Source: Aquidulcibacter sp.
GTDB lineage: Bacteria; Pseudomonadota; Alphaproteobacteria; Caulobacterales; Aquidulcibacteraceae
Direction of reading: 5' to 3'
Length of the DNA: 62,939 nucleotides
NCBI RefSeq assembly: GCF_020253525.1
Contig: NZ_JADCBK010000051.1
Coordinates: forward strand, 1-62,939
This document shows, piece by piece, positions 3,774-21,042 of this stretch. Under the pieces are notes generated by a model. That model searched no databases, had not been told where the DNA came from, and worked only from the letters and a program-made list of their open reading frames with translations. The position numbers and the translations under genes are program-made. Position 1 is the first letter of the stretch. Each line of letters begins with the position of its first letter.

Positions 3774-5575
3774 TTGTTATTGGCCTCCGTGGCAGAAGTC
3801 GCGCGGATCTGGAACACGCCATAGATCAACAGGATCAAGAAAATCACCACCGAATAGGCGGCCGCATAGCCGTATCGATATTCCTCAAACGCGATGCGGT
3901 AAGCCCGTGTCACAAGGATTTCGTTGGCCCCAGAAGGCTGCCCGGCGCTGACCAGATAGATCACATTGAACATGTTAAACGTCCACACGACCGAAACGAT
4001 GATGGCAGGCAGAAGGGCGGGTCGCAGGCTGGGCAAGGTAATCAGCCAGAATTGTTGCCAGGGTGAGGCCCCATCAATGCGGGCGGCTTCATACATATCT
4101 TCATCCACCGCCTGAAGCGCGCCAAGTGCGACCACCATCATGAAGGGAAAGGACAGCCACGCATTGGTGGCAAGGCCGGTGATAAAGCTGGGCCCCACGC
4201 TATCAAACCATTGAACGGGTTGGCCCCCAAAGGCTTGGATGGCTTGGTTGATCGCGCCAAATTGTGGGTGGAACATGCCCTTCCACGTCAAAGCCGTGAT
4301 GTAATTGGGAATAGCCCACGGCAGGATCAGAAGTGTGCGATAGATCGCAACCCCGCGCAGGCCTTTGATATTGAGCAGGAGCGCCATCCCGAGGCCAATC
4401 GCCACCCCCAAAACGACATTGGAGGCCGTCCAAACAATGGTGACACCCAAGGTCCAATAGAAGTTCTGATAGTTAAAGGCTGCTCCATTGCCGCCGAAAT
4501 TAAAGTCACCCAAAATGCTGGCATAATTGGCAAACCCAACCCAGCGATCACTCCAGCTTGCGCCTTGGTTCAGCAAAGTCGTGTCGGTAAACGACAGGAT
4601 AAAGCCATAGAAGAAGGGGAAGAAGGCCAGTGCCAACATGCCAATCAAGGCGGGCGCAACATAGGCATAGGCGGTGGGGTTTTCTTTGAGCGCCCGCCAC
4701 GTTGAAGATGCGGCCCCGAAACTGATGAAGCCGCCAATCAAGGCACCAAGCCCACCCAAAAACAGAAGCGACGTATTAAGCGCCGCCCCGTCCACCGCGC
4801 CTGCAACGACAGCCGAGTCCAACCGCGCAACATCACCGGCAAGTGTTAGGCCGTTGCTGGTGGCCACTGCCCACATCGCCTCATCTACAGCGCGGGCTGT
4901 GGTGTTAAGATTGTCGAGAAGTACTTGCGAGGTCGTGGCCAGATTGGTTCCTGTGAACTGCCCCAGCACAAAGGCAACGCCCAGCGGCAAAGCCAAACCC
5001 GCCCACGCACCGAGCTTTGGCTGAACGAGGGCGAGACCAGCAATCACCAGAATGCCAAGGCCAATTGCCCCCCATTGTAGCGGGGAAATGAGCGCTGGAC
5101 CTGATGTTTTCGACGTTTGGACAATCTCGACCATACCGACGCGCTGGCCAGCCACGACCAAAGGTGCGGCTGCATGGGCCCCCAAGGCCTCTGGCTTAAG
5201 CTTTGCGCCTTCTATCGGTAGGCCAAGGATCAAATCATAGAGGGGCTTTTCGTTCAGGTTTAGCGGACGGGGTGCAGCTTCACCGGGCCAATTACTGACG
5301 GCCAATTGCTTGCCGTCTCGCATAACCAGACGATAGCGATCGCCTTCCCGGCCTGAGCGCTTGAGCACATCGGCCATCAAGGTGCCAATTGTTTGGTCGC
5401 TAAGCCCCGCCTCTAGGCCCGCCGAACCCAGTTTTGCCAAATCAGACGCCGTCACCAAGGCAACCGCGCCTGAGGCCGCTTCATCGCGATGTTGAGCGGC
5501 TTGCTGCAGGAAGAACAAAGCCCCGGAAATGACAATCAAGAGGGCGAAGAAGATCGCGCTTAAATTACGTTTCAT
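3770..5575 (-). CDS. malF: MalF-type permease with an unusual N-terminal extracytoplasmic extension
   Basis: Second membrane subunit of the maltodextrin importer. The permease core begins near residue 300 (TAYAYVAPALIG) and carries the EAA loop (EAARIDGASPWQQF) about 100 residues before the end. In front of it are ~300 extra residues: a membrane segment at 7-25, a soluble stretch at ~26-165 that reads like a small sensor or Cache-like fold, two membrane segments at ~167-205, a second polar segment at ~208-268, and another membrane segment at 270-288. At 601 aa it is clearly longer than E. coli MalF (514 aa), whose own large periplasmic loop sits elsewhere. It overlaps malE and malG by 4 nt each. 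Confidence 0.88.
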   Translation of the reverse strand: MKRNLSAIFFALLIVISGALFFLQQAAQHRDEAASGAVALVTASDLAKLGSAGLEAGLSDQTIGTLMADVLKRSGREGDRYRLVMRDGKQLAVSNWPGEAAPRPLNLNEKPLYDLILGLPIEGAKLKPEALGAHAAAPLVVAGQRVGMVEIVQTSKTSGPALISPLQWGAIGLGILVIAGLALVQPKLGAWAGLALPLGVAFVLGQFTGTNLATTSQVLLDNLNTTARAVDEAMWAVATSNGLTLAGDVARLDSAVVAGAVDGAALNTSLLFLGGLGALIGGFISFGAASSTWRALKENPTAYAYVAPALIGMLALAFFPFFYGFILSFTDTTLLNQGASWSDRWVGFANYASILGDFNFGGNGAAFNYQNFYWTLGVTIVWTASNVVLGVAIGLGMALLLNIKGLRGVAIYRTLLILPWAIPNYITALTWKGMFHPQFGAINQAIQAFGGQPVQWFDSVGPSFITGLATNAWLSFPFMMVVALGALQAVDEDMYEAARIDGASPWQQFWLITLPSLRPALLPAIIVSVVWTFNMFNVIYLVSAGQPSGANEILVTRAYRIAFEEYRYGYAAAYSVVIFLILLIYGVFQIRATSATEANNK

Positions 5576-6858
5576 GCCCGTCCCCCAGCTTGGGAAGCCC
5601 GCAAGGCGTCAATGGCTGCTTGCACTTCGGCTTGGCAATCATTCCAAGCCGATTGCGATGTCGTTTCCATTTTGGTGAAGCGCTTCATAGCTTTATCCGC
5701 CGGCGACCAAACCAATGTCATCTCTGGCAAATTGGGCATAGGCACGGCCAAAGCGCCTTGGGCTTTGAATGCGGAAATGATGGGATCATTCGCGATGGCG
5801 GGTACGCGATAGGCCGCCTCTGATGCGGACAATTGCCCGCCCTTTTGTGCCATAATGGTCGAGCCCTGCGGCCCGGCCAAAAATTTCGCAAATTGCCAAG
5901 CTTCGTGCTCGTCGGCTGTACCTGCGGCCAGATAGATGGCCTCAATCGTCATCCAGGGCCGCATGGGTTGATTATTGGCTTCTGAAATCATCGGCAAAAC
6001 CGCAATGCCCAGATCAATAGTCTTGGCCGCTTCGCCCAAAAACCACGGTCCACTCATAACCATGGCGGCGCGCTCTTCGTTAAATAGCGCCGTCACCAGT
6101 GAGTTGGCGGGATCATCTGGCAAAAGGTTAAGCTCTGACCGCCATTTGCGCACCAGATCAGAGGCTGCGACATTGGCAGGATCATTCAGGATCAAATCCC
6201 CCGCCGCATTAAAGGCACCCCCACCAAAGCCATTGGCAATGCCCGCATGGAAGAAATAATCGTCATAGGCATAAGCAAAGCCAAACCGACCACGCGCTTT
6301 ATCTGTGAGCTTTGTCGCGATCTCAACGAGTTCTTTGGTGGTGCGCGGCGGATTAGGGACTAATCTTTTGTTGTAGATTAAGGCGGCAGATTTGAAGTTC
6401 AACGGCAAGGCATAGGTCACGCCCTTATAGGTCGTGGCGTCCAGCATGCCCGGCAAAAAGCCTTGGCGATCTTCCTCGCTTAAGAAGAAATCGATGGCCG
6501 CGACCGTATTGCCGCTTTCAACCCAGCCGCCCATACGATCATGGGAGAAGATGAAAAGGTCAGGGCCCTTATTGCGGGGCACCGCCGCTGAAATCTTGTC
6601 GGCAAAGGCGTCATTAGGCACCCCGACGCAGCGGACAGGGCGGGCTTTACCAGCGACTTGGGCAGAATAAAGGGCCGCAACTTCTTCCAGGGCGGCCTTC
6701 TCGCGACCGCGATAAGAATGCCAAACCACCAGAGCATCGCGTTTAGGACCCGCAGATTTGCCACAAGCGGCCAATAGCGCGGTGCCGGACAACCCGAGCC
6801 CTGCTGCTAGGAATGATCGTTTGGTGGGTGATCCCCCGTGACTTGTGCGCCAAGCCAT
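5572..6858 (-). CDS. malE: Maltodextrin-binding lipoprotein (extracellular solute-binding protein family 1)
   Basis: Captures maltodextrin in the periplasm and delivers it to MalFG. The N-terminus has a basic n-region (TKRSF), a hydrophobic core and a lipobox LLAAC, with Cys at about residue 32, so it is probably a lipid-anchored protein and not free as in E. coli. The body (428 aa) is a family 1 sugar-binding protein, with motifs such as YALPLNFKSAALIYNK and MVMSGPWFLGE typical of MalE-like proteins. It starts 3 nt after the malK stop. The operon context makes maltose or maltodextrin the likely ligand. Confidence 0.9.
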   Translation of the reverse strand: MAWRTSHGGSPTKRSFLAAGLGLSGTALLAACGKSAGPKRDALVVWHSYRGREKAALEEVAALYSAQVAGKARPVRCVGVPNDAFADKISAAVPRNKGPDLFIFSHDRMGGWVESGNTVAAIDFFLSEEDRQGFLPGMLDATTYKGVTYALPLNFKSAALIYNKRLVPNPPRTTKELVEIATKLTDKARGRFGFAYAYDDYFFHAGIANGFGGGAFNAAGDLILNDPANVAASDLVRKWRSELNLLPDDPANSLVTALFNEERAAMVMSGPWFLGEAAKTIDLGIAVLPMISEANNQPMRPWMTIEAIYLAAGTADEHEAWQFAKFLAGPQGSTIMAQKGGQLSASEAAYRVPAIANDPIISAFKAQGALAVPMPNLPEMTLVWSPADKAMKRFTKMETTSQSAWNDCQAEVQAAIDALRASQAGGRA

Positions 6859-6861
6859 GGG

Positions 6862-7974
6862 TTAAACCTTCTCGGCTAAGCGCAGATTGGTCTTGCTATC
6901 GAAGAAATGCGCCTTGCTGAGATCGGCTTCCACTTCGACCCATTCCCCCAATTTGGGCGTGGGGGCCTCACCATGGCTCTTGGCGATCAAAGTGGTGCCA
7001 TCGACATCGAGATGGGTCAGAACCTCGTGGCCTAAGGTCTCCACCATTTCGACCCGTCCTTTGAATTGGGCGGCCGCGTCAAAACTGCCCTGCCCCTTCA
7101 CGCGAACATCCTCTGGGCGGAAACCGATCAGGACGCTGTCAGCTGTTTGGGCCGAAGGCTCCCACCGATCCGGCATCGCAAAACCAGGCGAGGCCGCATG
7201 CGAAATCGCCCGTCCGGCCAGCTGTGTGGTCAAAATTGACATGCTGGGCGCGCCGATAAAGCGGGCGACAAAGACGCTGCTCGGACGGTGATAGAGCTCC
7301 AAGGGCGTGCCAACCTGCATCAGATTGCTGTCGCCGGCTTCGGCCAAAGGCGCTAGCACGGCGATCCGGTCGCCCATGGTCATGGCTTCGGTTTGATCGT
7401 GCGTGACATAAACGGCGGTGGTGCCTAAGCGCTTCTGCAAGCGCGAAATCTCAGCCCGCATGCCAGTCCGCAGCTTGGCGTCGAGGTTTGACAAAGGCTC
7501 ATCAAACAAAAAGACCGCAGGATCGCGGACAATGGCGCGCCCCAGCGCCACACGTTGTCGTTGCCCCCCAGAAAGCGCTTTAGGCTTGCGATCCAAATAG
7601 GGGTCAAGACCCAAAATGGCCGACGCCTCTTGCACGCGCTTTTCAATCTCGGCTTTCGGCATTTTTCGCACCTCAAGACCGAAGGCGACATTTTGGCGAA
7701 CCGTCATATGGGGGTAAAGCGCATAGGACTGAAACACCATGGCAACGTCGCGGTCTTTGGGCTTCAGATCATTCACAACCCGATCTGCAATCTTCAAATT
7801 GCCAGAGGAGACCGATTCAAGGCCGGCAATCATCCGCAGGGCGGTCGACTTGCCACATCCAGACGGCCCAACCAGAACCATGAACTCGCCATCCTTGATG
7901 TCGAGCGATAAGTTCTTGATGACATCAGTTTCGCCATATCGCTTTGCGACGGTTTCAAAAGTGATGCCTGCCAT
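6862..7974 (-). CDS. malK: Sugar ABC transporter ATPase (MalK/UgpC type)
   Basis: Cytoplasmic ATPase powering the MalEFG importer. Walker A GPSGCGKST at residues 36-44, Q-loop FQSYALYP near 81, signature LSGGQRQRVALGRA at 134-147, Walker B FLFDEP at 155-160, and the H-loop VTHDQ. The C-terminal ~130 residues form the TOBE/regulatory domain (VLIGFRPEDVRV). The length of 370 aa is normal. It is the first gene of the minus-strand operon and is divergent from the hexR-like gene across a 318-nt regulatory region. Confidence 0.95.
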   Translation of the reverse strand: MAGITFETVAKRYGETDVIKNLSLDIKDGEFMVLVGPSGCGKSTALRMIAGLESVSSGNLKIADRVVNDLKPKDRDVAMVFQSYALYPHMTVRQNVAFGLEVRKMPKAEIEKRVQEASAILGLDPYLDRKPKALSGGQRQRVALGRAIVRDPAVFLFDEPLSNLDAKLRTGMRAEISRLQKRLGTTAVYVTHDQTEAMTMGDRIAVLAPLAEAGDSNLMQVGTPLELYHRPSSVFVARFIGAPSMSILTTQLAGRAISHAASPGFAMPDRWEPSAQTADSVLIGFRPEDVRVKGQGSFDAAAQFKGRVEMVETLGHEVLTHLDVDGTTLIAKSHGEAPTPKLGEWVEVEADLSKAHFFDSKTNLRLAEKV

Positions 7975-8173: not shown

Positions 8174-8202
8174 TTGCACATTTGATGTAGCAAAACTACA
8201 AA
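8174..8202 (+). promoter_or_regulatory. Candidate promoter of the glycogen operon with an overlapping HexR-like operator
   Basis: TTGCAC at 8174-8179 and TACAAA at 8197-8202 are spaced by 17 bp, a plausible -35/-10 pair facing the regulator gene. Inside it lies TGTAGCAAAACTACA (8186-8200), a perfect 5+5 inverted repeat with a 5-nt spacer. This resembles the TGTA...TACA palindromes reported for proteobacterial HexR (from memory). The position suggests autoregulation and possibly control of the divergent malK operon. The rest of 7975-8292 shows no gene; a clear SD (GGGAGGG, 8277-8283) precedes the regulator. Confidence 0.6.
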
Positions 8203-8292: not shown

Positions 8293-9162
8293 ATGATCAT
8301 CAGTCAGATCGATTCTCATCTCGCGGACTTGCGCCCGTCTGAACAGCGTGTAGCGCGCTTTGTTTTGGGCCGCCCGACTGTCGTCGTTGAAATGTCCATT
8401 GCCGATCTGGCCGAGCGTGCCGATGTGTCAGAACCCACGATCATGCGCTTTTGTAAGGCCATAGGCTGTATGGGCTTTATGGACTTTAAGCTGAGCCTTG
8501 CGCGAGATCTTGAGCGCCGCACCTTGTCCATGAGCCGCCAGAACCCGCATGTGAAGGGCCATAGCGGGCTTGGCCAAGCCTTGTTTGAGCAAGTCTCAAA
8601 GACCTTGGGCCAAAAGGGAACCACCCTCGCACTTGATGAGTTAGAAACCCTTTTGGAGATTTGCGCCGGGAGCGGGCGAATCATTGTGCTGCATTCGGGC
8701 GCAGAAACTCTGTTTGCAGACACGCTGGTGAATGCCTTGCGGGGCTGTGGCTTAGAAGTATGCGACCAAACCACCGCCGATATCAGCGGACGGCGCGACA
8801 GCATCTTAGTCATTGCACTGAAATCGAGCGTTCGCATTCCAAAGGTTGAGCAAACCCTGCAAGATGTGTGCGCCGCGGGCGGGCGGGTTGCCCTGATCGG
8901 CCATACAGGCTTGCCAGCCACGCTTGCGCTGGGCGAGTTTGACGTCGGCCTTGCCGACCATATTGCTTATGCAGCCACGATCGAAGCTTTAAGGCTTGGG
9001 ATCGAGGCGCGCCTATCCAAGAGCGGACATTTCTCACAAGCAGATTCGGAAATGCTGCAGTCGCAGCGCGAAAATGCCTATGCCGATGCGCGCCGCAGAG
9101 ACCGGCAGAGCGCGCTGAAGGCAAATCCGGACGACACGACTTTTTATGAGGATGCGCGCTAA
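8293..9162 (+). CDS. RpiR/HexR-family transcriptional regulator
   Basis: DNA-binding regulator with an N-terminal RpiR helix-turn-helix (residues ~1-80; ADLAERADVSEPTIMRFCKAIG) and a C-terminal sugar-isomerase (SIS) fold. The N-terminal layout (LRPSEQRVARFVL, then GFMDFKLSLARDL) is close to HexR, the KDPG-responsive regulator of zwf and Entner-Doudoroff genes. The SIS part is degenerate: where family members usually carry an S-x-SG-x-T phosphate loop, this one has IALKSSVRIPK. So its ligand may differ or be absent. Its stop overlaps the glgB start by 1 nt (TAATG), so it is the first gene of the glycogen operon. Confidence 0.85.
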   Translation: MIISQIDSHLADLRPSEQRVARFVLGRPTVVVEMSIADLAERADVSEPTIMRFCKAIGCMGFMDFKLSLARDLERRTLSMSRQNPHVKGHSGLGQALFEQVSKTLGQKGTTLALDELETLLEICAGSGRIIVLHSGAETLFADTLVNALRGCGLEVCDQTTADISGRRDSILVIALKSSVRIPKVEQTLQDVCAAGGRVALIGHTGLPATLALGEFDVGLADHIAYAATIEALRLGIEARLSKSGHFSQADSEMLQSQRENAYADARRRDRQSALKANPDDTTFYEDAR

Positions 9163-11423
9163 TGGCCACCAAAACGACCCGGGCAAAACCGGCGAAGGCC
9201 GCTTTGAATGGCTCGGCCCAGCTAGGGCCTGCTTTGGCAGACCAAAGCGAAATTCTCGCTTTAGTCGCAGGCACACATACAAACCCATTTGCCTTCTTAG
9301 GCCCTCATGGCGATGCGGAAGCCCATGACGTTACAATCCGCTGTTTTCTGCCTGCTGCAGAAAGTGTGACGCTGGTCGCGCCAGATCAAAAGCTCTCACT
9401 CGCAATGACAAAAGTGCATCCAGACGGCCTTTTTGTCGCCAACATCGCCAAACCCAAGCAGCCCTTAACCTATCATTATCTGGCAAGCTGGGACGGGGAA
9501 GAGGTACGCCTTGAAGACCCCTATCGGTTTGCAGGGATTTTGAACCCGAAGGAAATCCTTCGCTTCCGCCAAGGCCAACTCTGGCGGGCTTGGGAATGTT
9601 TGGGCTCCAGGCCCATCACACTGGACAAGGTTGAGGGCTATGCTTTTGCGGTTTGGGCCCCAGCTGCGCAGCGGGTTTCGGTCGTCGGCCCCTTCAACAA
9701 TTGGGATGGGCGTCGCCATATCATGCGCAAGCTGCATGATGCCGGAATTTGGGAGATTTTCATCCCCGGCCTGTCGGCGAACGATATCTATAAATATGAG
9801 ATTATTGGCGCAAACGGAGACCTCCAGCCCTTAAAGTCTGACCCGTTTGGCCAAGCCGCAGAGTTGCGCCCTGCCAATGCCAGCCGCTTGGTGAATCCGC
9901 CCAAGCACATCCAAAGCGACCAAGCCTGGCTAAAGTCGCGCCATAGCCGACACGGCCTCGATGCGCCCATTTCAGTCTATGAAGTCCATGCGGGCTCCTT
10001 CCGCCGCAAGCCCGAAGAGGGTAACCGCCCGCTGACCTATGGCGAGCTGGGCGATTGGCTGATCCCCTATGTGCGCGACATGGGCTTTACCCATGTGCAA
10101 TTCATGCCGTTGACGGAATATCCCTTTGATGGCTCTTGGGGCTATCAGCCTGTTGGTCTGTTTGCCACCACCAGCCGCTATGGCACACCTGATGAGTTCC
10201 GCGCTTTGGTGGCCCGTCTGCATGAAGCAGAAATCGGCGTGTTATGTGATTTCGTGCCCGCCCACTTCCCGATTGATGGCCATGGCTTGAACCGGTTTGA
10301 CGGCACCGCACTCTATGAACATGCCGACCCGCGCCTTGGCTTCCACCCCGATTGGAAGACCAATATTTATGACTTCACCAAGCCCGAAGTCGTCAATTTT
10401 CTGGTTTCCTCGGCCTTGTTCTGGCTCGACCGCTTCAAAATTGATGGCCTGCGCGTCGATGCTGTCAGCTCCATGCTCTATCTCGATTATTCTCGCGCAG
10501 ATGGAGAATGGATCCCCAATATCTATGGCGGCAATATCAATCTTGAAGCTGTCCAATTCATGCGCCGCTTGAATGAGATGTGCTATGGCGAGGCCGATGG
10601 CATCATGATGGTGGCCGAAGAATCCACCGCTTGGGCAGGCGTTTGTAAACCTACTTATGACGGCGGGTTGGGCTTTGGGTTCAAATGGAACCTCGGCTGG
10701 ATGCATGACACGCTCCAATATATGAGCCGCGACCCCATCCACCGCGCCTGGCACCATGGCGAGATCACCTTTGGCTTAGCCTATGCTTGGTCCGAGAACT
10801 TCATGCTCGCGCTCAGTCATGATGAAGTCGTCCATGGCAAGGGCTCGATCTTTTCGCGCATGCCCGGCGATGATTGGCAGCGCTATGCAAACTTGCGCGC
10901 CTATTACGCTTTGATGTGGGCCCATCCCGGCAAGAAATTGTTGTTCATGGGGGCTGAATTTGGCCAAGTCGCCGAATGGAACCATGAAGGCAGCCTTGAT
11001 TGGCATTTGTTAGATCAACCCAGCCATAAAGGGGTTCAGTCTCTGGTCCGGGATCTGAACAAACTCTATCGTACAACCCCTGCCCTACATCAACGCGATT
11101 GCGATCCCTCAGGCTTTGAATGGGTTCAGGCCGATGCGGCGGATGTGTCAGTGTTTGCCTTCTTGCGCTGGAACCACGACCGTTCGGAAAAAGTCCTCGC
11201 TTTGATCAATATGACCCCCGTGCCCCGCGTCGAATACCGGGTGGGCGTGCCCCATGGTGGGGCTTGGAAGGTGATCCTGAACACAGATTCTTCGGCCTAT
11301 GATGGGTCTAATTTCGAAGGCCCCATTTGGGTGGAGGCAGAGGCCATGCCTTTCAATGGCCAGCCCGCTTCGATTGTTCTGACCCTGCCACCGCTTGCAG
11401 GCCTTTATCTCGTTCCGGCATAG
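9162..11423 (+). CDS. glgB: 1,4-alpha-glucan branching enzyme GlgB
   Basis: Introduces alpha-1,6 branches into glycogen. The 753 residues start with a variable ~25-aa lead, then two carbohydrate-binding (CBM48-like) segments (NPFAFLGPHG; FAVWAPAAQRVSVVG), then the GH13 barrel. Catalytic regions: DFVPAHFP (region I), DGLRVDAVSSML near residue 430 (nucleophile Asp), MMVAEEST near 483 (Glu acid), LSHDEVVHGKGS near 550. The length is normal for proteobacterial GlgB. It is translationally coupled to the preceding regulator (1-nt overlap) and followed 14 nt later by glgX. Confidence 0.97.
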   Translation: MATKTTRAKPAKAALNGSAQLGPALADQSEILALVAGTHTNPFAFLGPHGDAEAHDVTIRCFLPAAESVTLVAPDQKLSLAMTKVHPDGLFVANIAKPKQPLTYHYLASWDGEEVRLEDPYRFAGILNPKEILRFRQGQLWRAWECLGSRPITLDKVEGYAFAVWAPAAQRVSVVGPFNNWDGRRHIMRKLHDAGIWEIFIPGLSANDIYKYEIIGANGDLQPLKSDPFGQAAELRPANASRLVNPPKHIQSDQAWLKSRHSRHGLDAPISVYEVHAGSFRRKPEEGNRPLTYGELGDWLIPYVRDMGFTHVQFMPLTEYPFDGSWGYQPVGLFATTSRYGTPDEFRALVARLHEAEIGVLCDFVPAHFPIDGHGLNRFDGTALYEHADPRLGFHPDWKTNIYDFTKPEVVNFLVSSALFWLDRFKIDGLRVDAVSSMLYLDYSRADGEWIPNIYGGNINLEAVQFMRRLNEMCYGEADGIMMVAEESTAWAGVCKPTYDGGLGFGFKWNLGWMHDTLQYMSRDPIHRAWHHGEITFGLAYAWSENFMLALSHDEVVHGKGSIFSRMPGDDWQRYANLRAYYALMWAHPGKKLLFMGAEFGQVAEWNHEGSLDWHLLDQPSHKGVQSLVRDLNKLYRTTPALHQRDCDPSGFEWVQADAADVSVFAFLRWNHDRSEKVLALINMTPVPRVEYRVGVPHGGAWKVILNTDSSAYDGSNFEGPIWVEAEAMPFNGQPASIVLTLPPLAGLYLVPA

Positions 11424-11437
11424 GAAACAGGATCTGA

Positions 11438-13537
11438 ATGCTGCTGCGACTGGAACCAGGCAACCCAAATCAATTGGGGGCGACGCTCGGTGAGGGTGGC
11501 GTCAATTTTGCGCTGTTCAGTGCCCATGGCGTCCGGGTTGAGCTCGTTTTGTTTTCCAGCGATGGACGTCAAGAAATTGCGCGCGCCGATCTGCCAGCCC
11601 GCAAGGGCGACATCTGGCATGGCTTTGCCCCCAAGCTGGGGGCTGGAACCGTCTATGGTTACCGCGTCCATGGGCCCTATCGGCCAGATCAAGGGCACCT
11701 CTTCAACCCGCATAAAGTCTTGCTGGACCCCTATGCAAAGGCTGTGGCTGGCACCTTTCATTGGGGGCCAGAGCATTTTGGCTATTTCTACGAAAGCCAT
11801 GACCCCGATGGGATGGCCGATCCTCGCGACAATAGCGCGACATGCCTTAAAGGGGTGGTCGTCGATCCCGCCGCACTTGCCCCCCTGCCCCGCCATCAAG
11901 GCAAACCGTGGCGCGAAACCCTAATTTATGAGCTGCATGCCAAGGGCTTTACCATGCAGCTGCCGGGTTTGTCTGAGAAAGAGCGTGGCACATTTGCAGG
12001 TCTCGGCAGCCAAGCAGCCCTCGATTATCTATGCGCGCTGGGCATTACAACGATCGAGCTTTTGCCCATTCACCAATTCATTCACGACAAATTTCTCGTC
12101 GATCAGGGCCTGAAGAATTATTGGGGCTATAACACGCTCAATTATTTCGTCCCGCATGGCGACTATGCCATGGGTGAGCCCATCGCAGAGATGCGGGCTT
12201 TTGTCCAAAACGCCCATGCCCGCAATCTCGATGTCTGGATGGATGTGGTCTATAACCACAGTTGTGAGGGCAATCGGCATGGACCAACCCTGTCCTATCG
12301 CGGGATCGACAACGCCTCTTACTACCGGCTGAACCCGCAAGACCCAAGTCGCTATGCCGACATTAGCGGCTGTGGCGCAACGCTGAACGCCGCCCATCCC
12401 CACGTGCAAAACCTGATCGTGGACTCCTTGGCCCATTGGACACAATGCTATGGCCTCGATGGCTTCCGCTTTGACATTGCCCCCTCGCTCGGCATGGATG
12501 AGGCCGGCCACTTTAGCCGTGAGGCCCCCTTCTTTGCTGCAGTCCGGCGCGACCCGCGGCTAAAGGACGTTAAACTTATCGCCGAAGCATGGGATGCGGC
12601 CGGGGGCTATTATGTTGGCGATTTCCCATCGGACTGGGCCGATTGGAACGGCAAAGCACGTGATTCAATCCGGCAATTCTGGCGCGGCGACACAGATAAA
12701 GCGCGCGACTTTGCCAAGGCCTTAGCGGGCACACCGGACTTGTTTCGCCATAAGGGCAAGCCGGTTGAGGCCAGCATTAACTTCATCGCTTGCCATGATG
12801 GCTTCCCGCTGTTGGACCTCACGCGTTATTCCCAAAAGCACAACCATGCCAATGGCGAGAATAATCGCGATGGGGGCGATCATGATTTCTCGGCCAATTA
12901 TGGGGTTGAGGGCGAAACCGCCAATCGCGAAATTGAAGAGCTGCGCGAGCGGCAAGCCCGCAATATGTTGGCCAGCGTCTTTCTAAGCTTTGGCACGCCC
13001 ATGCTGTTGGCCGGCGATGAAATGGGTCGCACGCAAGGGGGCAACAATAATGCCTACTCGCAAGACAATGAAATCAGTTGGCTTGATTGGCGATTGCCCA
13101 GCTCTCGCCTTGGCGGGCAACGCTTAAGCTTTACCAAACAACTCATCGCTTTGCGCAAAGAGATGTTTTCAGGCTTTCCAGACGGCCATCCCAATGGCCC
13201 GGGCGAGCGCGAGCCGACCATTGCGTGGTGGAGTGTGTGGGGCAATCTGATGACCCACAGCGATTGGATGGATGAGAAGACCCAGTGTTTTGCGGCTATC
13301 TATGAGCCGCGCGGCTGGTTGATCCTGTTCAATGCCAGTCTGGCCGATGCAGCCTTCATCTTGCCCCCCACCGGGACCGGCATCTGGCGCATGGCGCTGA
13401 CCACCGCCGACCCCATTCGCCCCACCCAAGATCAAGTGGCCGCGGGCGGGCAGACCATTCACCTTCCTGCACGAACCCTGATCGTGTTTTCGCGTGACAC
13501 CTCAAGAACAATTGGAAAGACCGGACATGGCTTTTGA
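11438..13537 (+). CDS. glgX: Glycogen debranching enzyme GlgX
   Basis: Hydrolyses alpha-1,6 branches of phosphorylase-trimmed glycogen. An N-terminal CBM48-like domain (LGATLGEGGVNFALFSAHG) is followed by a GH13 barrel with DVVYNHSCEG (region I), DGFRFDIAPSLG near residue 342 (nucleophile), LIAEAWDAAGGYYVG near 382 (acid) and FIACHDGF near 452. The length of 699 aa matches isoamylase/GlgX enzymes. The stop codon lies inside the start region of malQ, an 11-nt overlap that suggests coupled translation. Confidence 0.96.
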   Translation: MLLRLEPGNPNQLGATLGEGGVNFALFSAHGVRVELVLFSSDGRQEIARADLPARKGDIWHGFAPKLGAGTVYGYRVHGPYRPDQGHLFNPHKVLLDPYAKAVAGTFHWGPEHFGYFYESHDPDGMADPRDNSATCLKGVVVDPAALAPLPRHQGKPWRETLIYELHAKGFTMQLPGLSEKERGTFAGLGSQAALDYLCALGITTIELLPIHQFIHDKFLVDQGLKNYWGYNTLNYFVPHGDYAMGEPIAEMRAFVQNAHARNLDVWMDVVYNHSCEGNRHGPTLSYRGIDNASYYRLNPQDPSRYADISGCGATLNAAHPHVQNLIVDSLAHWTQCYGLDGFRFDIAPSLGMDEAGHFSREAPFFAAVRRDPRLKDVKLIAEAWDAAGGYYVGDFPSDWADWNGKARDSIRQFWRGDTDKARDFAKALAGTPDLFRHKGKPVEASINFIACHDGFPLLDLTRYSQKHNHANGENNRDGGDHDFSANYGVEGETANREIEELRERQARNMLASVFLSFGTPMLLAGDEMGRTQGGNNNAYSQDNEISWLDWRLPSSRLGGQRLSFTKQLIALRKEMFSGFPDGHPNGPGEREPTIAWWSVWGNLMTHSDWMDEKTQCFAAIYEPRGWLILFNASLADAAFILPPTGTGIWRMALTTADPIRPTQDQVAAGGQTIHLPARTLIVFSRDTSRTIGKTGHGF

Positions 13538-15050
13538 TCGCATCAGTGGCATTTTGCTCCACCCCACCAGCTTGCCTGGCCCCTATGGTATTGGGGAAAT
13601 TGGCGATGAGGCCATGGCCTTCATCGATGCTTTGGCCGAGTCTGGTCAAAAACTATGGCAAATCCTGCCCATTAATGCGACCGGCAATAATGCCAGCCCC
13701 TATTCGGCGACCACAACCTTTGCCGCCAATCCGCTTTTGATCGACATCGATGGCTTGATTGAAGCAAAGCTATTGACCGCAGACGAAGTGGCCCATCTGA
13801 AGGCTCTGCCACAGGTGAAGGTCGATTATGAGGTAACCGTGCCCGCCCGTCTTGGCGTGCTGCGCTTGGCTGGCAGTCGCCTGGCAGCGCAAAAGGACCA
13901 TCCCCTGGCGAGCGGCCTTGCTGCGTTTAAAGCGAAGCATGGTGCGGCATGGCTAGATGATTATGCCTTGTTTGAAGCCATTTCGGTTTCCCGCCAGCGC
14001 CAAGGCTGGATGCATTGGCCCGACGATCTACGCCGCAGGGACCCTGCAGCCTTAGCTGAGGCCCGCAAGGACTTGGCAGACGATATTGCCGCGATCGAGG
14101 CCCTTCAATTTCTGTTTGATCTGCGCTGGCAGCGCTTGCGTCAGCATGCAGCGTCGAAGGGCATTATGATCATTGGCGATATGGCGATCTTTGTTGCCCA
14201 TGATTCAGCCGATGTGTGGGCACGGCCTGACCTGTTCAAATTGGACAAGGACTTTAATACCCGGGTTGGGGCGGGTGTTCCGCCGGACTATTTCAGCGCT
14301 ACGGGTCAGCTGTGGGGCAATCCCATTTATGAATGGGACAAAATGGCTGAAGACGGCTTTTCGTGGTGGGTGGCCCGCATGCGCCGCTTGCTGGACTTTG
14401 CCGATGCGGTCCGGATCGACCACTTCCGTGGCTTTGCCTCGTGCTGGGAAACCCCGGCTGGTGAAACGACCGCGATCAATGGCCAATGGGTTGATGTTCC
14501 AGGTGACGCTTTGTTCACCGCAATCACCACTGCCTTGCCCGATCTGAAAGTGATCGCCGAAGATTTGGGCCATATCACCGAAGACGTCATCGCCTTGCGC
14601 GACAAATTTGCCTTCCCCGGCCTTAAAATCCTAGAGTTTGAGTTTGGCGATGGCCCGCCACGCGACGAGCGCCACCCCTATCATTATCCCGCCGCAACCG
14701 TCTGCTATCCCAGCACGCACGACAATAATACGGTGATTGGCTGGTTCAAAAATGACGGTCGCGAAGCCGCAGAGCGCGCCAATGATGCCCCGCGTGAAGC
14801 CGCTGCCGCATTAGAATTGCTTGGGGGTGACGGCAGTGATTTGCACTGGCGCTTCATTGAATTGGCCATGCAATCTGGCTCCAATCTCGCCATTATTGCG
14901 CTACAGGATGTCTTTGGACTCGATGGCAATGGCCGGATGAATACACCAGGCACCATTGAAGACAATTGGAACTGGCGGTTCCAGACTGGCGACTTCACCC
15001 CTGCAGCCCGGCAAAAGCTGCGTGACCTTGCGAAAGAATACGGACGCTAA
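13527..15050 (+). CDS. malQ: 4-alpha-glucanotransferase (amylomaltase)
   Basis: Transfers glucan segments between maltodextrins, releasing glucose (GH77). Motifs in order: GILLHPTSLPGPYGIGE at the N-terminus, VRIDHFRGF near residue 295, VIAEDLGHITEDV near 343 and THDNNT near 397. I place the start at the ATG 13527 because it is preceded by GGAAAGA and the family begins just before the GILLHPTSLP motif. An upstream in-frame start at 13494 would add 11 unlikely residues. The 507-aa product has normal bacterial length. It is followed after 5 nt by the phosphorylase-kinase-like gene. Confidence 0.96.
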   Translation: MAFDRISGILLHPTSLPGPYGIGEIGDEAMAFIDALAESGQKLWQILPINATGNNASPYSATTTFAANPLLIDIDGLIEAKLLTADEVAHLKALPQVKVDYEVTVPARLGVLRLAGSRLAAQKDHPLASGLAAFKAKHGAAWLDDYALFEAISVSRQRQGWMHWPDDLRRRDPAALAEARKDLADDIAAIEALQFLFDLRWQRLRQHAASKGIMIIGDMAIFVAHDSADVWARPDLFKLDKDFNTRVGAGVPPDYFSATGQLWGNPIYEWDKMAEDGFSWWVARMRRLLDFADAVRIDHFRGFASCWETPAGETTAINGQWVDVPGDALFTAITTALPDLKVIAEDLGHITEDVIALRDKFAFPGLKILEFEFGDGPPRDERHPYHYPAATVCYPSTHDNNTVIGWFKNDGREAAERANDAPREAAAALELLGGDGSDLHWRFIELAMQSGSNLAIIALQDVFGLDGNGRMNTPGTIEDNWNWRFQTGDFTPAARQKLRDLAKEYGR

Positions 15051-15055
15051 CCGAC

Positions 15056-18004
15056 ATGAACGACCAAGCCCCGGACATGGAAGCGCGCCTCAGTCATTGG
15101 TATGACCATATAGACGCGATCTTTCTGAAGCGCTTGAGCGCCGAAGCAGGCCTTTTGCCTGCCAGCACCGCCAAAACCGTCCATGGGGATTATGCGCATG
15201 CTTGGGTGCGCGACAATGTCTATTCCATCCTTGGCGTTTGGGGCTTGGCGTGTGCTTATAAGCGGCTGGAGCCGGGTTCTGAGCGGACGCATTTTTTAGA
15301 AGCCAATGTCATTCGGCTGATGCGGGGCCTGCTTTCGGCCATGATGGGTCAGGCCGATAAGGTTGAGCGGTTTAAGCATACGCAAGACCCACTTGATGGT
15401 CTGCACGCAAAATATGATGCGGCCACAGGAAAGCCTGTTGTTGGCGATGCCCATTGGGGGCATTTGCAGATTGATGCGACCTCCCTCTTCCTGTTGTTCT
15501 TGGCACAAATGACGGCTGGCGGGCTCAAGATTCTCAAGACCGCCGATGAAGTCGATTTTGTCCAAAACCTCGTACATTATATTGGCCCCGCTTACCGGAT
15601 TGCCGATTATGGGATTTGGGAGCGTGGCCGCAAATCCAATGACGGCGTTGTCGAAATCAACGCGAGCTCCGTCGGCGTTGCCAAAGCAGCGCTGGAGGCC
15701 ATGGATGGATTGGACTTTGGCTGTCAGGCCCGCGGCCCCATTCGGGTACCAGCTGATGATATTGCCCGGGCGCGCGAGACCTTGCAGGTCCTGTTGCCGG
15801 GCGAATCCGCCTCTAAAGAAACTGATGCCGCTTTGCTGGCGGTGGTTGGCTGGCCCGCTTTTGCGGTCGACGACAAGGTGATGATTGCTCATACGCGCGG
15901 TCGTATCCTGGATCGGCTGGCTGGGCGCTATGGCTGCAAGCGGTTTTTGCGCGACGGCCATCAAACGACGGTGGAAGACGAGCACCGCTTACACTATCAC
16001 GCTGGTGAGCTCTCAAAATTCGCCAATATCGAATCCGAATGGCCGCTTTTCTTTACCTATCTCCTGGTTGATGCGGAGATGACAGGGGATAAGCGCGGTG
16101 CAGGTGCTTGGGCAGACAGGCTGGATCCCTTGTTCCAAATCCGCGATGGCCTGCCCCTGTTGCCAGAGCTTTATTATGTCGAGGCCGATGCGGTGGAGGC
16201 AGAAGCTGCCGCACCGGGCAGTCAAGACCGCGTCGCCAATGCCAATTTGCCGCTCTTGTGGGCACAGTCTCTCTGGGCATTGGGCGCCATGCTGCAAGAA
16301 GGCCTTTTGGCCCCTGAAGACATTGACCCACTTGGTCGACGCCATCACCTCAATCGTACCCATCAGCCGGAAATCGCCTTTGCGATTGTCGCCGAGGATG
16401 AGGAAACCGCTGCGAAGCTTTCCGACTTGGGACTAATTTGTGACCGGATGGCCGAGCTTGGATCGGAGGTCACCATCCGTCCAGCCGGGGATTTGGTCAG
16501 CGTTTGGACCCAGATTGGCAGCAATGCGGACTTGGGTCTAACGGGGCGACCAGAAAAGCGGCTAGGGCCTTTGGCCAATGCCTATATCTATGAGGCCGAA
16601 GGGCAGCCAGTTGTGTTCTCGGCAACGCTTCTAGAGGCCCATGACCACCATATTCGCTATGATGCGGCCGCCCGAGCACGCCGCCTGCGCGGCGATCTTC
16701 GCTATGTGGCGCGGCATTGGCGGGGGCAGGATAATCCTGTCTTTATCCTCTGCGTCGATGCAACCGCCATGCAAGGGACCGGCGTGGACCGCCTGATCGA
16801 GCTTTTGCACGAGGTTCAGCGCGGCCAAGTGGACTTTGCCAGAACCAAACTGATGCGCATGGACGACGTGTTGCGCGCTCAGGCCAAGTCTCGGTCAATT
16901 GGCTCTCTCTTGCGGCATGAAACCAAGACAGAATTGAAACCAAGCCTGCCCCAGTCCATCGACCAAGGCTTTGGGCCCAGCTTGGATCAGGCCATCGCAT
17001 CGGGCGATCAAGCAGAAGTCGAGCGGATTTACGAAGCGGCCGGACGGGCGGGCGATTGGGCAACAGCCCGGCGGGGTGCTGCATCTTTGAACCGCACCGA
17101 CCCCCGACTACAGGATTCAGCCAAAGACATTGTGGTTCGATTGCGCCGCCTTGGTCTTGGCGAAGGGCGTGTCATTACCCGCCCTGTCTCGGAGGGCGAG
17201 CTTGTGACCATGATCGAGGATGGTCTGCACTCCAAATTGCATGCGGTGATTGCTCAAGAAGTTTTGCAAGCACTGGGACTGTTCAGCAAATCTGACTCCA
17301 ATGCCGTGCGTGGCATGAGAACAATCCGCCTGACGGAAATCGTGGGACGATTGGGACAAGAAGAAGCCGGCGGGATGGATAATCTGGTGGCAGAACCCCC
17401 GAGCATTTTGTTTGACCGCGTGAAGTCCATCCTGTTGGAAACACCTTCCGTTCGGGCGGTGGTCTCCCCTGCCCCCGCGTTTGCTTTAACACCCTCGGCG
17501 CAAGCAATTGGCAATGACTGGGAACAATGGCGCGAACGTCTGGGCATTTTGACCCGCGTGGGCAATGACTTCTTTGCCCGCCTATGGTCCTTGCTGCATG
17601 TTTGCCCCGGTATTGTGTTTGGCGCGAATAACCGACTGGACGCAGCGGTCGCGCGGTCTGACTTGACGGCTTGGGAAAAAGATTTCGCGTTGGAGATTGA
17701 AGTCCGGCTTGAGACCATCCCCGACCCGGCCTATCGCACCTTCTGCCTCGAGGCGCTGAATGTCCTCGCCAATCGCCATGAGCGCGATCCCGACTATCGG
17801 GTTGAGCAAGACATTATTCTCGATGATCTCATCCATGATGCGGTGGCTTGGATTTGGCGCCAAGCGGGTCATGGCGAGCCAGATTGGACAGAGGCGGGTC
17901 CCGTTTGGGCGATGGCGCGCCATGCTGATGCACAGACGATGGCGCTCGCGCTTTATGCGTGTTGTGAGAAGTATAAAGCCACTTCTGAACCCGCTTTCTG
18001 CTGA
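15056..18004 (+). CDS. Bacterial relative of glycogen phosphorylase kinase alpha/beta subunits (GH15-like)
   Basis: Last gene of the glycogen operon (982 aa). The N-terminal ~430 residues are a GH15/glucoamylase-like (alpha/alpha)6 domain. In my reading they follow the human phosphorylase kinase alpha subunit almost motif by motif: HAWVRDNVYSILGVWGL (48-64), LMRGLL then VERFKHTQ, LHAKYDA, WGHLQIDATSLFLLFLAQMT (20 residues, 134-153), ADYGIWERG (183-191), INASSVGVAKAALEA, RYGCKRFLRDG and LPLLPELYYV. Similarity continues into the C-terminal region: IAQEVLQALGLF (~730), a Phe-Trp segment near 831-838 and PDPAYRTFCLEALNVLA (~890). That is the KPBB C-terminal layout. There is no kinase domain in or beside it. 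The function in bacteria is not known to me; glucan binding, residual glucoamylase activity or control of glycogen phosphorylase are all possible. The GH15 part alone could lead to a generic glycoside hydrolase annotation. Confidence 0.85.
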   Translation: MNDQAPDMEARLSHWYDHIDAIFLKRLSAEAGLLPASTAKTVHGDYAHAWVRDNVYSILGVWGLACAYKRLEPGSERTHFLEANVIRLMRGLLSAMMGQADKVERFKHTQDPLDGLHAKYDAATGKPVVGDAHWGHLQIDATSLFLLFLAQMTAGGLKILKTADEVDFVQNLVHYIGPAYRIADYGIWERGRKSNDGVVEINASSVGVAKAALEAMDGLDFGCQARGPIRVPADDIARARETLQVLLPGESASKETDAALLAVVGWPAFAVDDKVMIAHTRGRILDRLAGRYGCKRFLRDGHQTTVEDEHRLHYHAGELSKFANIESEWPLFFTYLLVDAEMTGDKRGAGAWADRLDPLFQIRDGLPLLPELYYVEADAVEAEAAAPGSQDRVANANLPLLWAQSLWALGAMLQEGLLAPEDIDPLGRRHHLNRTHQPEIAFAIVAEDEETAAKLSDLGLICDRMAELGSEVTIRPAGDLVSVWTQIGSNADLGLTGRPEKRLGPLANAYIYEAEGQPVVFSATLLEAHDHHIRYDAAARARRLRGDLRYVARHWRGQDNPVFILCVDATAMQGTGVDRLIELLHEVQRGQVDFARTKLMRMDDVLRAQAKSRSIGSLLRHETKTELKPSLPQSIDQGFGPSLDQAIASGDQAEVERIYEAAGRAGDWATARRGAASLNRTDPRLQDSAKDIVVRLRRLGLGEGRVITRPVSEGELVTMIEDGLHSKLHAVIAQEVLQALGLFSKSDSNAVRGMRTIRLTEIVGRLGQEEAGGMDNLVAEPPSILFDRVKSILLETPSVRAVVSPAPAFALTPSAQAIGNDWEQWRERLGILTRVGNDFFARLWSLLHVCPGIVFGANNRLDAAVARSDLTAWEKDFALEIEVRLETIPDPAYRTFCLEALNVLANRHERDPDYRVEQDIILDDLIHDAVAWIWRQAGHGEPDWTEAGPVWAMARHADAQTMALALYACCEKYKATSEPAFC

Positions 18005-18607: not shown

Positions 18608-18735
18608 CGGCGACTTTTCAACAAGTCCAGCTTCGGACAGGGCGACACCTCGCCATGTCTCTGATGCCCACTTGTGGGGGCCTCCAGACGTGGGGTTTCC
18701 AGAATGACGACGCGCCGAACTTACCACATGGCCGC

Positions 18736-18752
18736 ATGTGGACACGAGGAGG
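18736..18752 (+). promoter_or_regulatory. Partition-type repeat, copy 3, overlapping the parA ribosome-binding site
   Basis: ATGTGGACACGAGGAGG ends 7 nt before the parA ATG at 18760 and contains the SD. A protein bound here would block parA translation-initiation DNA and transcription, which suggests autorepression by the ribbon-helix-helix partner. Confidence 0.6.
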
Positions 18753-18759
18753 TAGGAAG

Positions 18760-19407
18760 ATGCATGTAGTAGCCATAGTCAGCCAAAAAGGTGGGGCAGG
18801 TAAGACCACTTTATCGGTTCACCTCGCTGTTGCGGCCGCGCGCAAGGGCCTCTCGGTGGCTCTGATCGACCTCGACCCTCAAGCAACTGCCGCGCAATGG
18901 GGCGACTGGCGGGGCGGGGATAATCCAGCCGTTGTGGCCACGCCTTACACACGATTAGAGGCCACCTTGCAGGAAGCGGCCCAAGCGGGGGTGGATCTGT
19001 GCATCCTCGATAGCCCACCGGCGGCAGATGCCGCGGCAGTCTCTGCTGCGCGTGCCGCTGACCTAGTTTTGGTGCCAACCCGGGTCAGCGCTTTTGACCT
19101 TCATGCTATCAAGACCACAGGGGAACTGATGCGGATCGCGCAAAAGCCCGCCTATACGATTTTCAACGCTGTCCCACCTCGGGCAGCCAGTCTGGTTGAA
19201 GATGCTGCCGCTGTTGTGCGCGGGATTGGCATGCCACTGGCCCCTGTTTGCCTGACAGAGCGGGCGGCCTTCCGCCATGCCGTCGTTGATGGCCATACCG
19301 CCAGCGAATATGAACCCGGCTGCAAAGCCGCAACCGAAGTCGATGCGGTCTTTGAATGGATGATGGGCCGCCTCACCAAAACCCAAACCGTCGCCCAAGC
19401 GGCCTAA
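18760..19407 (+). CDS. parA: ParA-type partition ATPase (short, type Ib-like)
   Basis: Drives segregation of the replicon. Deviant Walker A SQKGGAGKTT at residues ~8-17, Walker A' LIDLDPQATA, Walker B-like LCILDSPPAAD. There is no N-terminal helix-turn-helix, so with 215 residues it belongs to the short ParA/ParF class. Start chosen at ATG 18760, preceded by GAGGAGG; a longer in-frame reading from 18655 would add 35 residues of non-family sequence. It is followed 34 nt later by a small ribbon-helix-helix protein, the usual partner of this class. Confidence 0.9.
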   Translation: MHVVAIVSQKGGAGKTTLSVHLAVAAARKGLSVALIDLDPQATAAQWGDWRGGDNPAVVATPYTRLEATLQEAAQAGVDLCILDSPPAADAAAVSAARAADLVLVPTRVSAFDLHAIKTTGELMRIAQKPAYTIFNAVPPRAASLVEDAAAVVRGIGMPLAPVCLTERAAFRHAVVDGHTASEYEPGCKAATEVDAVFEWMMGRLTKTQTVAQAA

Positions 19408-20124: not shown

Positions 20125-21042
20125 ATGTCCGCGCGACGCAAAGATGACCCTCAATTCGACTTCTTCATCCCGATGGTGCACGACATTCCGTTGAAAGATC
20201 AGCGGGAGACGATGGAGCGGCCCTTCTTCTCGCTGCAAAAGCGCAAGCGCCTGAAGCCGATTGATTACCGCAGCCCCGATGGCGAAGTTTGGGTCAAGGT
20301 TGAAGCAGTACCTGCCTATGGCATGGCAACCATTTGGGACGCCGATATCCTCATCTGGGCGGCCAGCGCCCTCAATCGTCTCAAGCAACAAGGCGTCAAT
20401 GATCTGCCGCGTACGCTGCGCACCACCGCCTATGACCTCTTGCGCGCCATCAAGCGCGATACGGGCGGCAAGGGCTATCAGGAAATGCGCGCCGCCCTCG
20501 ACCGCTTGGCCTCAACCACCATCTTCACCTCGCTCCGCGCCAAGCGGGGCAGGGACCGTCGCTTCTCGTGGATTGATGAGTGGGACATTGAGGTTGACCC
20601 CATTACCGAACAGCCGCGCGCGCTTCGCATCACTTTGTCCAACTGGATTTACGAAGGGGTGACGCAGGAAAAGCAATTGCTGACCATGCACCCAGACTAT
20701 TTCAGCCTCACCGGTGGGCTGGAACGCGCGCTCTACCGGATTGCGCGCAAGCATGCCGGCGATCAGAAAAAGGGCTGGCTCTGCCGCTTTTCGGTTCTAA
20801 AAGACAAGACCGGCTCTGACTCTGAACCTAAAGAGTTTGCCCGCATGATGCGCAAGATCGCGCTGCGCGATGAATTGCCTGAATATAGTATGACGATTGT
20901 CAAAGCCGCCGACGGCTCGCCTGCTGCCCACTTTATCCGTCGCGACGCGGGTGAACGCACCGCCATCTCCGACGCCATCATTGAATTTGACCAATTATAC
21001 GCCGACACCATCGCGAAAAAGCAGGGCGATTTGCTCCTCTGA
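20125..21042 (+). CDS. repA: Plasmid replication initiator RepA (RPA family)
   Basis: Initiates replication by binding iterons at the origin. The 305 aa read as the RPA-type initiator found on alphaproteobacterial plasmids: an N-terminal DFFIPMVHDIPLKDQ stretch, then SLQKRKRLKPIDY, then a winged-helix region with LPRTLRTTAYDLLRAIKRDTGG and YQEMRAALDRLASTTI, then a second DNA-binding part (GLERALYRIARKHAG; GWLCRFSVLKDKTG). ATG 20125 has a purine-rich leader. It lies directly downstream of the partition genes and upstream of the iteron array. This gene is the strongest evidence that the window comes from a plasmid or chromid. Confidence 0.9.
   Translation: MSARRKDDPQFDFFIPMVHDIPLKDQRETMERPFFSLQKRKRLKPIDYRSPDGEVWVKVEAVPAYGMATIWDADILIWAASALNRLKQQGVNDLPRTLRTTAYDLLRAIKRDTGGKGYQEMRAALDRLASTTIFTSLRAKRGRDRRFSWIDEWDIEVDPITEQPRALRITLSNWIYEGVTQEKQLLTMHPDYFSLTGGLERALYRIARKHAGDQKKGWLCRFSVLKDKTGSDSEPKEFARMMRKIALRDELPEYSMTIVKAADGSPAAHFIRRDAGERTAISDAIIEFDQLYADTIAKKQGDLLL

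Follow-up and report, generated by a model that had tools for sequence, protein, structure and literature searches.

What does a relative of the regulatory subunits of phosphorylase kinase (PhK) do in a bacterium whose genome shows no match to glycogen phosphorylase? The question is raised by a gene of Aquidulcibacter sp. (Alphaproteobacteria; Caulobacterales), which lies on a 62,939-nucleotide stretch of DNA (assembly GCF_020253525.1, contig NZ_JADCBK010000051.1) that was analysed at its full length and is called the window below. The gene encodes a protein (P0001) resembling the alpha and beta subunits of PhK and stands last in a presumed operon of alpha-glucan genes. We propose, from sequence comparisons, that this PhK-like protein is an exo-acting GH15 alpha-glucosidase working on maltodextrins and filling the slot usually held by GlgP/MalP. 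We give this reading a probability of roughly 0.57.

The reading frame has no internal stops over its 982 residues and is matched by Pfam models in both halves: PF00723 (GH15) at residues 25-430 (E = 8.1e-58) and PF19292 (KPBB_C) at residues 818-937 (E = 1.4e-30). When the single sequence was compared with every PDB chain, nothing but the alpha (E = 1.4e-154) and beta (E = 8.9e-136) subunits in 8jfk, the structure of human muscle PhK (PMC10978961), matched at E values up to 1. Residues 29-606 correspond to 28-608 of human alpha and residues 722-907 to 952-1137; against human beta, residues 10-606 correspond to 47-660 and residues 654-930 to 765-1032. The initial annotation had described a full-length homologue of PhK alpha/beta, and this description holds for both subunits over most of the length. 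In particular, the GH15 and KPBB C-terminal profiles both match, and the homology is not confined to the GH15 domain. Judged by these comparisons, the protein belongs to the KPBB family (GH15-like N-terminus, KPBB_C C-terminus) and is a full-length bacterial relative of PhK alpha/beta by common ancestry. Its N-terminal domain (D1) would adopt an (alpha/alpha)6 barrel, as implied by homology to D1 of human alpha, whose glucoamylase-like fold is solved. Proteins of this kind are already known, as bacterial members are recognized by the Pfam model (a distant KPBB_C copy in genome G398, for example, scores E = 1.2e-88); no NCBIfam family matched the window's protein at E 0.001. Among the papers listed by searches of the open-licence literature, judged by titles and abstract openings, none dealt with the function of bacterial PhK-like proteins. 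Homologues were found neither in plasmid records nor in viral contigs, and an anti-phage role was rejected as there was no PADLOC match.

The active-site data favour plain GH15 catalysis. Both catalytic glutamates of GH15 and the active-site residues around them are present, and 13 positions (Y46, W50, R52, D53, Q138, D140, D184, W188, E189, R296, E326, E371 and Q404) are invariant in 17/17 PhK-like proteins, the window's included. The same positions are invariant in 15/15 further proteins from a distant genus (g156), which brings the total to 32/32 bacterial proteins. A class sample of 142 genomes supplied 28 other GH15 proteins for comparison (30 fetched loci, leaving out L084, which is the window's own gene, and L104, which has no frame of 300 amino acids with the motif). 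These carry the same residue in 28/28 cases at each position except D184 (27/28) and E326 (24/28). As the GH15 frames were chosen by the motif [WYF]-x-R-D, identity at R52, at D53 and in part at W50 was built into the comparison, which is not so for Y46, Q138, D140, W188, E189, R296, E371 and Q404 (28/28). A two-residue segment of the PhK-like protein, H302-Q303, falls in a gap in all 28. Tyr46 shows the Y-x3-W-x-R-D spacing of other GH15 proteins. Structures of GH15 enzymes show the catalytic base hydrogen-bonded to a tyrosine in the alpha1-alpha2 loop (Tyr337 in TtGA, Tyr326 in AgGD, Tyr48 in KfIG; PMC12446779). Tyr46 may well be this base-holding tyrosine, on the strength of the motif spacing and of our own equating of the motif with that loop.

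D1 is also the constrained part of the protein. Among 15 full-length proteins, 34% of its positions are invariant (146/430 at residues 1-430) vs 4-7% elsewhere (8/180 at 431-610, 4/100 at 611-710 and 18/272 at 711-982), with segment limits that are rough and our own. Gene-wide pairwise dN/dS is 0.036-0.054 over six comparisons, a rough range since several dS values are saturated. For residues 711-982 it is 0.026-0.042 in close relatives (five of the six comparisons giving a value).

The initial annotation had given the gene a glycogen-linked role and proposed a test against the cognate GlgP; a link to the classical glycogen pathway or to such a GlgP found no support in the rest of the genome. 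This genome is 99.96% complete and has no match at E 0.001 to PF00343 (phosphorylase) or PF08323 (GT5 glycogen synthase); its four matches to GlgC are weak and partial (best 27 bits vs a cut-off of 425). That is, glgC, glgA and glgP, the genes by which we judged the classical pathway, are not in evidence; the PF00343 search, for its part, found the family in 12/14 control genomes. A working PhK subunit would need a glycogen phosphorylase to act on, and we class the protein as a relative by descent, not as such a subunit. The one Hanks-type kinase match in the genome lies on another contig.

In the organism's own family, KPBB_C occurs in 11/60 genomes and PF00343 together with PF08323 in 4/60, all from another genus, with no overlap; neither PF00343 nor PF08323 was found in any of the 11 carriers (own genome included), of which two are only 63% and 87% complete. 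Two genomes of the organism's own genus, G005 (one contig) and G008, are without KPBB_C. In g156, KPBB_C occurs in 46/48 genomes and PF00343 in 17/48, all of them carriers, which leaves 29/46 carriers without PF00343 (one carrier, G480, has KPBB_C as a short 498-amino-acid frame, and two of the 17 PF00343 matches are weaker and divergent). Eight of the 398 genomes in a phylum sample carry KPBB_C, and two of these eight belong to the organism's own genus. We take from this distribution only that the PhK-like gene does without phosphorylase.

The surroundings of the gene point to a different pathway. The gene was said to follow malQ by 5 nucleotides in a glgB-glgX-malQ row, and this is what we find: the four genes share a strand, and glgB, glgX and malQ each score over the cut-off of a curated model. 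An operon of alpha-glucan genes is supported. The label of glycogen operon does not fit here: neither glgP nor glgA is matched anywhere in the genome, the glgC matches stay under the cut-off, and the genes that adjoin are those of a Mal-type transporter. The cluster has two divergent arms (Table 1), with the transporter genes and a GH13 gene running leftwards and the regulator, glgB, glgX, malQ and the PhK-like gene running rightwards. The GH13 protein, MalQ and GlgX stand together in one cluster, as in a maltodextrin cluster, and the whole reads as a set for maltodextrin uptake and breakdown. In Caulobacter crescentus, a GH15 protein of the maltodextrin cluster (CauloGA) is a proven inverting glucoamylase (PMC3917699).

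Table 1. Features of the window discussed in the text, by position
Feature	Position	Strand	Remarks
GH13 (alpha-amylase family) protein	1190..2890	-	two PF00128 pieces; no model over cut-off; signal-like N-terminus by eye
malG-like permease	2895..3773	-	best match MalG model, below cut-off
malF-like permease	3770..5575	-	best match MalF model, below cut-off
malE-like binding protein	5572..6858	-	best match MalE model, below cut-off
ABC transporter ATPase, UgpC/MalK type	6862..7974	-	over cut-off for the UgpC subfamily model; next best MalK model, below cut-off
TGTAGCAAAACTACA palindrome, predicted operator	8186..8200	.	gap between transporter ATPase and regulator genes
RpiR-family regulator, HexR-like	8293..9162	+	HexR-type regulators among the members of the two top models; no model over cut-off
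glgB, branching enzyme	9162..11423	+	TIGR01515 over cut-off
glgX, debranching enzyme	11438..13537	+	TIGR02100 over cut-off
malQ, 4-alpha-glucanotransferase	13494..15050	+	TIGR00217 over cut-off; start codon uncertain
PhK alpha/beta-like protein (P0001)	15056..18004	+	982 amino acids; ATG start; last gene of presumed operon
N-terminal GH15-like domain D1	15056..16345	+	residues 1-430 by our own cut; Pfam match 25-430
Tyr46, placed like the GH15 tyrosine that hydrogen-bonds the catalytic base	15191..15193	+	by alignment
Glu189 (WERG), predicted general acid	15620..15622	+	corresponds to Glu185 of human alpha
Glu371 (LPELY), predicted general base	16166..16168	+	equivalent to human alpha Glu371
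D2-like segment	16346..16873	+	residues 431-606; collinear with both human subunits
KPBB_C domain	17507..17866	+	residues 818-937, Pfam
ParA-type ATPase, plasmid-like backbone	18655..19407	+	
Replication initiator protein A (RepA; PF10134)	20125..21042	+	

The rightward arm is kept in close relatives. A scan of genome contigs gave 28 stretches matching the pattern, eight of which encoded a relative, and these came down to six distinct loci from Aquidulcibacter, Ca. Phycosocius and metagenome-assembled genomes labelled Hyphomonadaceae, Alphaproteobacteria or Maricaulis (77-97% protein identity). The order regulator-glgB-glgX-malQ-PhK is found in 6/6, the ParA gene downstream in 6/6 and RepA in 5/6, the sixth contig ending first. 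Other genera vary the theme. In g156, glgB and glgX come after the PhK-like gene at all 17 loci examined (two found first and 15 fetched on purpose, among 46 carrier genomes), and 12 of those 15 genomes are without PF00343. Genes for methyl-accepting chemotaxis proteins (sCache_2 + HAMP) adjoin PhK-glgB-glgX in both scanned g156 loci (L041:13423-15033, L042:5364-6974). Genome G016 has the order glgB-glgX-malQ-PhK. In G015 (contig C34, L037:2-3613), MalQ, GH15 and KPBB_C share one 1203-amino-acid frame with no detectable D2-D3, a single case whose frame is open at the contig edge, and in G013 a compact form of 667 amino acids has a cyclomaltodextrinase-like gene and a GH97 gene as neighbours. 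At two loci of the GlgP-bearing genus of the own family, a glgX/malQ fusion is followed in a row by glgP, glgB, an unnamed gene and then glgA.

A few details of the window complete the picture. The start of malQ is hard to place, the homologous open reading frames (ORFs) of relatives beginning at varying points. The MalF-like permease (3770-5575) has 601 amino acids, and its match to the MalF model begins at residue 346, preceded by a long N-terminal part. RepA matches the PF10134 replication initiator, and the operon therefore borders a plasmid-like replication region. Further along, a single 487-amino-acid ORF (50912-52375) joins a KDPG/KHG aldolase domain to an SMP-30/gluconolactonase domain. 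Rfam and tRNA scans of the window returned nothing.

We envisage the PhK-like protein as an alpha-glucan enzyme that has the PhK alpha/beta architecture and works in the cytoplasm (no signal peptide is visible by eye). The Mal-type transporter would bring in maltodextrins. MalQ and GlgB would rearrange and branch the chains, GlgX would debranch them and the PhK-like enzyme would trim them, with D1 most likely freeing glucose from non-reducing ends by an inverting two-glutamate mechanism (Glu189 as acid, Glu371 as base). The C-terminal PhK domains would probably serve to assemble the protein or to sense chains/ligands. The glucose released would pass through glucokinase towards the Entner-Doudoroff pathway; the genome has a glucokinase gene (PF02685, 5.2e-87), with a pullulanase-like gene and a TonB receptor on the same contig. 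Finally, 2-keto-3-deoxy-6-phosphogluconate (KDPG), an intermediate of the Entner-Doudoroff pathway, would relieve repression by the HexR-like regulator.

The regulatory step of this scheme has a candidate site. One TGTAGCAAAACTACA palindrome lies in the gap before the regulator gene in the window and in 6/6 relatives, and no other stretch of the window fits TGTAG-N5-CTACA exactly. When up to one mismatch is allowed, the window holds two such sites against 0.43 expected, a number reached by 6/100 shuffles. The palindrome is one base off the Pseudomonas RccR site at aceE, TGTAGTAAAACTACA (14/15 bases; PMC5489143), and KDPG weakens the binding of RccR to this type of 15-bp site (same source). We predict an operator here because the site is conserved among close relatives, not because of the site count.

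Several results weigh against the enzyme reading. One comes from human alpha, whose catalytic pair (Glu185/Glu371) is apparently intact and which is reported to have shown no activity on maltose, isomaltose or glycogen (PMC10978961). An intact site is no proof of catalysis, since human alpha keeps both glutamates yet is inactive. Leu follows the base in 17/17 and 15/15 PhK-like proteins, where the 28 other GH15 proteins have Asp (18), Glu (9) or Gln (1) and the solved inverting enzymes named in PMC12446779 have Gln. As this Leu is unlike all 28, it slightly weakens the enzyme reading and slightly strengthens the sensor discussed below. By hhalign, the match of D1 to one group of other GH15 proteins was modest (E = 2e-7): it took in residues 124-380 alone, with the two glutamates in register, and the more distant L105 gave nothing useful. 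AlphaFold2, run on seven close sequences, gave a mean pLDDT of 42.1 and a pTM of 0.30, and the model was not used.

The genomic side has its own difficulties. Since malE, malF and malG match Mal models best but below the cut-offs, maltodextrin is only the presumed cargo of the transporter, and the ATPase passes the UgpC model only. The genome encodes other candidates for releasing glucose, namely two full-length GH13 proteins that we call alpha-glucosidase-like (their best NCBIfam models bear other names) and one that is cyclomaltodextrinase-like, all below model cut-offs; the PhK-like protein therefore need not be the sole glucose-releasing enzyme. At four loci of two other families (f40 and f62), no glgB, glgX or malQ match was found within the 20 kb fetched, and the KPBB_C match at one of the four (G426) spans a stop codon. 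Phosphorylase is present in four of the other six phylum-sample carriers (two are without PF00343), and Synechococcus elongatus carries both KPBB_C and PF00343. Mutual exclusion of KPBB_C and GlgP was rejected as positive evidence (Fisher p = 1.0 in the own family, 0.53 in g156).

The chief rival to an enzyme is a non-catalytic glucan sensor, in which D1 would bind chain ends uncleaved and the C-terminal domains would signal to MalQ, GlgX or GlgB. Such a protein would be the bacterial counterpart of what happens in animals, where alpha and beta subunits of the same architecture act on the gamma kinase. The inactivity of human alpha fits a sensor, as do the binding of the glucoamylase inhibitor acarbose by PhK (PMC10978961) and the strong constraint on residues 711-982 among close relatives. 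A sensor does not readily account for a complete GH15 catalytic set, tyrosine included, that is invariant in all 32 bacterial proteins, nor for the compact and MalQ-fused forms, which have no detectable D2-D3 yet retain D1 and its active site. We regard it as unlikely on balance. The lead given by the initial annotation, a regulatory partner of the cognate glycogen phosphorylase, draws on the homology to PhK alpha/beta and on the carriers that do have PF00343 (4/6 distant genomes, 17/46 in g156 and S. elongatus). With no PF00343, PF08323 or over-cut-off GlgC in its own nearly complete genome, and no PF00343 in any family carrier by a search that worked on most controls, GlgP regulation was rejected for this organism and is highly improbable.

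It could also be asked whether the enzyme is a hydrolase at all, or instead a retaining transglucosidase that remodels maltodextrins in the manner of dextran dextrinase. GH15 sequences alone cannot tell inverting from retaining enzymes (PMC12446779), and neither the solved inverting enzymes nor any of the other 28 GH15 proteins has the Leu found here after the base. The residue preceding the base speaks the other way: it is Pro in 17/17 and 15/15 PhK-like proteins (Ser 20, Ala 7 and Pro 1 in the other 28), Pro again in the inverting AgGD and KfIG, and Gly in the retaining dextran dextrinase (same source). Moreover, MalQ of the same operon already supplies transglucosylation. A transglucosidase strikes us as improbable, and we lean towards an inverting hydrolase.

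How, then, does the proposed exo-acting glucosidase compare with known systems? With the inverting glucoamylases and glucodextranases of GH15, such as CauloGA, it has in common the general acid and base, the D-Y-x3-W-x-R-D motif and, for CauloGA, the place of the gene in a maltodextrin cluster. It differs from the GH15 inverting enzymes in its PhK-type C-terminal domains, in having no signal peptide by eye, in the Leu after the base and in the H302-Q303 segment. Dextran dextrinase, which is GH15-like and retaining, likewise has both catalytic glutamates in its sequence (PMC12446779), and its Gly-Glu dyad is replaced here by Pro-Glu.

Human PhK (8jfk) is the closest in architecture. The D1, D2 and KPBB_C regions are collinear in the two systems and both catalytic glutamates are common with alpha, whereas the bacterial genome has no GlgP match and no kinase gene adjoins. 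The human subunits carry a C-terminal CaaX farnesylation motif (PMC10978961) and the bacterial protein, which ends in ...ATSEPAFC, does not. By eye on the alignment, human alpha keeps 12 of the 13 active-site positions and misses only the tyrosine: around Tyr46 it has a six-residue gap, a Gln in the column and a Tyr two residues off register, in a shorter loop. Human beta misses five (Y46, W50, R52, D140 and E371), in line with the published statement that it is without some catalytic residues (same source). The bacterial loop before W-x-R-D is longer than in either subunit and holds the invariant Tyr46. The missing tyrosine is, in our own view, a possible reason for the inactivity of human alpha.

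The 2024 structure paper leaves the role of the glucoamylase-like domains of PhK open, the alpha site being apparently intact and no activity having been detected (PMC10978961). The bacterial homologues offer a direct test, as some occur without phosphorylase and all 32 aligned keep the tyrosine loop absent from human alpha. The PhK-like protein may be an enzyme or sensor of the kind from which the animal regulator may have come. A bolder and more doubtful version, which we put forward tentatively, is that it is a working exo-glucanase of maltodextrin and branched-glucan breakdown in bacteria without GlgP, and that the eukaryotic regulator would descend from such a hydrolase, having lost the base-holding tyrosine loop and then come to regulate the phosphorylase that replaced it. 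If the bacterial protein is active, maltodextrin pathways without GlgP gain a candidate exo-enzyme, and the origin of PhK becomes a traceable story of an enzyme turned regulator.

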